Origin: Candidatus Altimarinota bacterium
Lineage (GTDB): Bacteria; Patescibacteriota; Gracilibacteria; UBA4473
DNA length: 34,309 bases
Assembly: GCA_021734525.1 (NCBI GenBank)
Contig: JAIPIW010000010.1
Span: 1-34,309 of the forward strand
Direction: 5' to 3'
Position 1 is the stretch's first letter, and every line of letters starts with the position of its first letter. Below the pieces are notes generated by a model. That model was not told where the DNA came from, ran no database searches, and worked only from the letters and a program-made list of their open reading frames with translations. A program made the position numbers and the translations under genes. Shown piece after piece: positions 8,034 through 34,309 of this stretch.

Positions 8034-8049
8034 TATATTATAATATAAT
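8032..8049. repeat. AT palindrome, copy 1 (18-bp perfect)
   Basis: ATTATATTATAATATAAT is a perfect 18-bp palindrome between the grpE stop and the start of the 28-residue gene, whose ATG it overlaps. It contains TATAAT twice on each strand. It shares the core ATTATAATATAAT with copies at 22474, 24967, 28899 and 33381, and nearly so at 18886. Confidence 0.85.
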
Positions 8050-34151: not shown

Positions 34152-34175
34152 CAAGATTCTTCTTGATTTTTTTTT
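34152..34175 (+). terminator. second possible terminator
   Basis: CAAGA-TTCT-TCTTG followed by A and a run of nine T (34167-34175). The stem is short but the T-run is long, so it may act as a back-up terminator for the tRNA-Thr transcript. Confidence 0.4.
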
Positions 34176-34193
34176 ATACGTTCCATTGAAAAA

Positions 34194-34309
34194 CCCCGAG
34201 CATACATGCTTGGAGGATGGAGCGTTAGTCCGCAGTTTCCGTTTTAGGAAACGAAGGGCTCAATCGGAGATTGAATTCAGCTAAAAATGCCCCGACCATA
34301 CTTGGTCGG
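34194..34309 (+). repeat. Hairpin-rich segment, possibly the start of a ~96-bp tandem repeat (cut by window end)
   Basis: Four hairpins occur in 116 bp: CCGAGCA-TACA-TGCTTGG (34196-34213), GTTTCC-GTTTTA-GGAAAC (34235-34252), CAATC-GGA-GATTG (34261-34273) and CCGACCA-TACT-TGGTCGG (34292-34309). The first and last begin with CCCCGA.CATAC after an A5 run and are 96 bp apart; they match at 16 of 20 bases and one base pair differs in a compensated way (G-C against C-G). All pairs form on the plus strand, including one G-U. No convincing ORF is present. It could be a repeat unit, a structured RNA or paired minus-strand terminators (CGGGG then TTTTT). Confidence 0.45.

Follow-up and report, generated by a model that had tools for sequence, protein, structure and literature searches.

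A 140-nt element at a contig end of a Gracilibacteria genome, very probably a non-autonomous derivative of an IS200/IS605-type transposon

The repeat at the contig end

The window (the whole stretch of DNA analysed, 34,309 nt) is one entire contig, C12, of genome G000, which comprises 934,600 bases in 43 contigs. The window stops inside a dispersed repeat, whose most obvious features are two similar hairpins in the same (direct) orientation, with AAAAA ahead of the first and AAAAATG ahead of the second. The left-end hairpin, CCCCGAGCA-TACA-TGCTTGG-A-GG, occupies 34194-34216 and has a single bulged A. The right-end hairpin, CCCCGACCA-TACT-TGGTCGG, starts at 34290 and is cut at 34309 by the contig end; its next two bases, GG, were read from contigs C32 and C35. 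The hairpins are 96 nt apart from start to start and are 76% identical over 25 nt. The pair G34200-C34209 of the left-end hairpin corresponds to C34296-G34305 in the right-end hairpin. Two smaller hairpins, at 34235-34252 and 34260-34274, lie between them.

The + strand of 34185-34309 has a predicted fold of -45 kcal/mol (z = -4.33; 0/200 shuffles as stable); the - strand of the same stretch gives z = -2.65 (1/200 shuffles). The original prediction had described the two hairpins, their spacing, the TACN loops, the exchanged base pair and two further hairpins in between; all of these are confirmed in sequence and fold. The accompanying view that structure rather than sequence is kept is supported.

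A DNA search of G000 gave four matches, every one at a contig tip (the ends of C12, C34 and C35 and the start of C32), and the tips of all 43 contigs were compared with one another. C12 and C34 have 138 nt in common and then differing left flanks; C32 and C35 have 137 nt in common and then differing right flanks; the two groups overlap by 126-129 nt. This pattern is that of a single 149-nt repeat in two copies: the two left flanks and two right flanks give two places in the genome, and no tandem array. Repeats of this kind stop assemblers, which explains where contig C12 ends.

The right border of the repeat is GTTTAC in both copies; the left border falls in a T run ahead of TATAC, and the copies share sequence from 34171. 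The element itself, of about 140 nt, probably runs from 34180, just after TTATAC, to 10 nt past the window, ending in GGTTGTTTAC. The coordinates first given for the structured region hold, but the unit begins further left; the continuation expected past the window is real for these 10 nt and stops there. The parts are as follows.

34174-34179, + strand: TTATAC, presumed left cleavage/target site; flank outside the element
34180-34309, + strand: probable palindrome-associated transposable element (PATE), about 140 nt; last 10 nt off-window on C32 and C35
34188-34193, + strand: GAAAAA, presumed left guide 5' of the hairpin; positioned as in the IS200/IS605 elements described in the available part of PMC8266576
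34194-34216, + strand: left-end hairpin, from the fold; left end homologous to a transposon end elsewhere in G000 (cluster B, below)
34215-34222, + strand: GGATGGAG, just after the left hairpin, from sequence comparison
34227-34260, + strand: second hairpin, AGTCC-GCA-GTTTCC / GGAAAC-GAA-GGGCT, with a six-base loop, from the fold
34261-34284, + strand: tnpA remnant CAA TCG GAG ATT GAA TTC AGC TAA, last 7 codons and stop, from alignment to relative L173
34283-34289, + strand: AAAAATG, presumed guide of the right hairpin, 5' of it; cluster A right ends (below) have the same seven bases
34290-34309, + strand: right-end hairpin, cut by the contig end, from homology to cluster A; then the off-window end, with presumed cleavage after TTTAC

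The + strand thus reads TTATAC, linker, A-rich guide position and hairpin, then guide position, hairpin, short linker and TTTAC. A third hairpin, CAATC-GGA-GATTG, sits within the tnpA remnant.

G001, which belongs to the same genus and is the closest relative that was searched, contains a full copy that is 98% identical and stands as a single unit inside a contig at another place. It ends on the right in TTTAC, and by eye no flank is duplicated; TTATAC stands before it, as it does before the other two full copies (C12 and C34). A match to the element was found in 3/99 relatives searched (G000, G001 and G013, the last with a single hairpin) and in 1/379 genomes drawn from the phylum, G000 itself. 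The hairpin motif at no more than one mismatch occurs in 3/353 genomes of the class, and the reversed hairpin pattern matched none of the genomes listed in that scan. In a collection of 84,980 species the motif occurs in six stretches, of which three belong to two Gracilibacteria MAGs; the three from other phyla have no TTTAC behind them and are probably due to chance. Two element patterns gave no match in viral contigs; a left-end pattern gave six, with no hairpin behind any by eye, and the element was not found in the phages and plasmids searched.

Relation to transposons

Of the 86 contig tips of G000 (loci L071-L146 and others), 50 sorted into shared dispersed-repeat clusters, several with recognisable transposon ends. 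Cluster B (5 tips) is a left end, TTTAAC|GTTCCTTGAAAAATCCCCGGGTCTACTGACCCGTGGGATGTAGCG, with TTTAAC at the place of TTATAC in all five tips. The left end of the window element, TTATAC|GTTCCATTGAAAAACCCCGAGCATACATGCTTGGAGGATGGAGCG, matches it with a score of 45 (shuffle maximum 29; 0/2000). A left-end pattern written for cluster B was found in 1/353 genomes; it is one base off the window element and so is uninformative on copies of the latter.

Two further clusters, A (3 tips) and E (6 tips), are right ends that follow the C-terminus of a Y1 transposase; the PF01797 match exceeds its cut-off at one cluster A tip and two cluster E tips. The right end of cluster A, AAAAATGCCCCGGGCTTTAGCCCGGGGATTGTTTAC, matches that of the window, AAAAATGCCCCGACCATACTTGGTCGGGGTTGTTTAC, with a score of 35 (maximum 29; 0/2000). 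The right end did not match cluster E (score 14; 1342/2000 shuffles), nor did the left end match cluster A (1097/2000 shuffles); the two ends have their counterparts in different resident elements. Clusters B and E share a hairpin core and have complementary arms, and for this reason they are probably the two ends of one element whose middle is not assembled. No intact Y1 transposase was found in G000, which has three C-terminal pieces, and no transposase with exactly the hairpins of the element was found in the genomes searched.

Two larger tip clusters in the same genome (11 and 12 tips) look by eye like the ends of one element, putatively IS1595-like.

When 353 genomes of the class were scanned for PF01797, 43 matches had an E-value of 1e-25 or lower. 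In one of these, L173, TnpA ends in EEDAGQAELELG and is followed by the hairpin CCCCGAGCGTAAGCTCGGGG. The 3' half of the window element matches the tnpA 3' end plus right end of L173 with a score of 45 (maximum 36; 0/2000), and a sub-stretch without the right hairpin still scores 32 (maximum 30; 0/2000); the same sub-stretch is more weakly matched to cluster E (26; 52/2000). The remnant (QSEIEFS stop) is aligned codon by codon with CAA GCG GAG CTT GAA CTC GGC TGA of L173 (QAELELG stop).

Six autonomous relatives (L173, L177, L180, L183, L205 and L210) were compared with the element. Its left end matches L180, L183 and L205 (0/2000 each), is borderline for L173 (8/2000), and is not significant for L177 (249/2000) or L210 (1342/2000). 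Its right half matches L173 only (0/2000); L210 comes next without significance (113/2000), followed by L177, L180, L183 and L205 (426, 519, 787 and 1412 of 2000). The exact parent was not found among the six. TnpA of four relatives is NF033573, the IS200/IS605 transposase; the L173 protein is similar to TnpA of solved structure, including that of ISHp608.

From these comparisons, the feature is very probably a non-autonomous PATE of 140 nt that arose from an IS200/IS605-type element (Y1 transposase) by loss of its core. It has near-terminal palindromes like those of an IS605-type transposon; it is too short for a transposase, of which it keeps the last codons only; and it is dispersed in near-identical copies, at the low number of two in G000, identical to each other, and one full copy in G001. 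Absence of target duplication was read by eye on G001, the sole copy with both flanks known; the two left flanks in G000 cannot be assigned to the two right flanks. The element is an ordinary kind of mobile element, real and well bounded.

Other explanations can be offered for parts of these data. A structured RNA had been suggested at the outset, and a small RNA gene in two copies, ending in an intrinsic terminator (the right-end hairpin followed by TTGTTT), would suit the stable + strand fold (z = -4.33) and the 98% identity in another genome of the genus. The copies lie in unrelated surroundings, however, and transposons are matched at both ends and in the tnpA tail; IS200-type ends and the tnpA 3' end account for most of the unit. 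No Rfam family reached gathering score at the element, the window and loci L005-L007 yielding three tRNAs only. An RNA gene is not needed and is very unlikely; a transcript from the element is conceivable. Spread of REP/BIME-type palindromes by a domesticated TnpA-REP is likewise very unlikely: the family does contain RAYT-like Y1 genes as well as palindromes of the GTAG type, and G001 and G013 have single hairpins of the same sequence, but AAAAA and AAAAATG stand 5' of the palindromes instead of GTAG, the two hairpins are direct, and a tnpA remnant lies between them.

The unit had also been taken for the first of a tandem array. All four G000 matches do lie at contig tips, where assemblers stop. 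Read beyond 34309 on C32 and C35, the sequence enters different unique DNA after one unit; each of the two left-flank and two right-flank tips holds one unit and then unique DNA, and the G001 copy is single. The array is contradicted and is almost certainly not the explanation. Nor do terminators of a minus-strand gene, the alternative named with it, fit a unit dispersed at unrelated places.

For the core-deleted PATE, the following mechanism is proposed. An internal deletion in an IS200-like element would have spared the left end, two stem arms from the 5'UTR and the tnpA 3' end (see below), the last tnpA codons with their stop, and the right end. The Y1 transposase of a full-size relative, supplied in trans, would recognise both hairpins on single-stranded DNA. 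The A-rich guides 5' of each hairpin would fix the cleavage sites, after TTATAC at the left end and after TTTAC at the right, and the element would move as a single strand. One protein reading both hairpins would account for the base pair that is swapped yet paired, and the action of a transposase from another element would account for dispersal.

The scheme draws on IS200/IS605 elements, for which the available part of PMC8266576 describes a TnpA that acts on single-stranded DNA, recognises palindromes and picks its cleavage sites via guides 5' of each palindrome. Like IS200-type insertion sequences (NF033573; ISHp608), the element has left and right hairpins, presumed 5' guides, TTATAC outside its left end and TTTAC at its right; unlike them, it has no transposase gene and is 140 nt long. 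REP sequences and TnpA-REP, as treated in the same part of PMC8266576, are similar in that a Y1 enzyme is believed to move short palindromes in trans; the window element differs in its lack of a GTAG motif, its direct hairpins and its IS200-type tnpA remnant.

The name PATE comes from Haloquadratum walsbyi. According to the accessible portion of PMC3119063, the elements of that organism are likewise transposase-free, with near-terminal IS605-type palindromes and no target duplication; some formed by core deletion, and single-hairpin 'terminal-only' forms exist. Judged against that portion, the window element differs in that the 3' remnant of its tnpA, and a stem made of 5'UTR and tnpA 3'-end sequence, can still be recognised; it also occurs in another organism. 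It would be a PATE whose origin can still be read, from a lineage with small genomes. Literature on mobile elements of this lineage, judged by title, yielded nothing related.

A long-range stem in the autonomous relatives

GGATGnAG stands at the place of GGATGGAG in all six relatives, and GGATGTAG stands there in cluster B. In the six, the sequence that follows the left hairpin and GGATGnAG can pair over 9-16 nt with the tnpA 3'-end codons; the two arms lie 413-428 nt apart, and compensatory changes are present. The stem was first noticed by eye, as was the 9-nt match of L210. In minimum-energy RNA folds, made for native sequences only, it is complete in 6/6 elements with a mean pair probability of 0.98-1.00.

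In a first survey, runs of at least 9 nt were found in 9/30 own pairs and in 36/870 cross pairs, a modest difference. When all 43 loci of the class were compared with their hairpins masked, 7/43 own pairs had runs of at least 12 nt and 36 did not reach this length; 7/1806 cross pairs did so, all within the close-relative sets L180/L183/L205 and L206/L207. Among 15 loci taken from other organisms or from viruses, one has a run of 13 nt, which is AT-rich. Seven further loci, L210-L216, none of them among the 43, gave runs of 9 (L210), 10 (L212) and only 7 nt (L214 and L215); L211 and L213 were missed by the ORF finder and are unscored, and L216 was left out.

Covariation was assessed on six rows chosen because they show the stem, L205 sharing the row of L183, which has the same arms. 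Among these arm pairs, 4/13 base pairs show changes in both arms, and none of 500 shuffles attained the covariation score; 89.7% of cells are paired in register, as against 30-54% in slid versions. Two of the five pair measures do not stand out: 16/500 shuffles reach the number of pairs with changes in both arms, and 249/500 reach that of further pair types. When the arms were dealt anew, the observed pairing was reached in 2/720 permutations, or 1/120 for the five distinct arms; both tests are small. In L206, L207 and L212, which form another IS200 subgroup, the start-codon region pairs instead with the tnpA stop-codon region, over 15, 14 and 10 nt; the place of the stem therefore differs between subgroups.

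In the window element the corresponding arms are now six bases apart and form the second hairpin (34227-34260). By this comparison the hairpin is the apparent collapsed form of the relatives' stem, its 3' arm being aligned and its 5' arm equated by position. A tentative model, which may well not hold, is that in an IS200 subgroup of the phylum (TnpA tail like G-x-E-D-[A/S/F]-G-Q) a conserved, covarying stem between the 5'UTR and the tnpA 3' end folds the element ends together across about 415 nt. It would work in cis in transposition, by joining the single-stranded ends, and/or close the tnpA message, and the window element would be its natural minimal version. On this model, retention of the stem in an element that no longer has a gene to translate would favour a role in DNA.

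In Salmonella IS200, too, there is structure in the tnpA 5' region; the stem given in the available text of PMC12594629 is local and hides the ribosome-binding site, whereas the stem of the relatives joins the 5'UTR to the tnpA 3' end. The literature searched, in the portions available, holds no description of such a 5'-3' tnpA stem; it took in few subscription papers and is no proof of novelty. If the model is true, the stem would suggest how single-stranded ends meet or how the transposase message stays shut, and the 140-nt element is a ready-made substrate for testing it. The stem could matter more than the element itself and is the part worth following.

Single hairpins and other palindromes

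Single hairpins related to the element occur in two genomes. On contig C4 of G001 (L012 1501-1530) there is a right-type hairpin, CCCCGAGCATAC plus TTGGTCGGGGTTGTTTAC, ending in TTGTTTAC; by analogy it looks like a left/right hybrid of the terminal-only kind. G013 (L010 1501-1530) has a single copy of the right hairpin as a long perfect palindrome, GTAAGCCACCCCGACCATACTTGGTCGGGGTGGCTTAC. Both may be core-deleted, terminal-only forms.

G002 has two identical GTAG-type palindromes (L047 1760-1779 and 2048-2067), with TTAC after each, near a Y1 (PF01797) match; this looks like a REP system. On C32, right after the element (L006 140-165), the palindrome ATACGTTA-GAA-TAACGTAT stands before a small ORF that is CopG-like by eye, and is possibly an operator.

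Elsewhere in the window, the palindrome TATATTATAATATA occurs at 8034, 12726, 18888, 22473, 24964, 28898, 28903 and 33383. These are eight matches at up to two mismatches, against 0.31 expected, and 0/100 shuffles had as many. Several copies lie just upstream of ORF starts, and the same core is present near the tips C19_e, C39_s and C43_e; it is possibly a promoter or operator motif.
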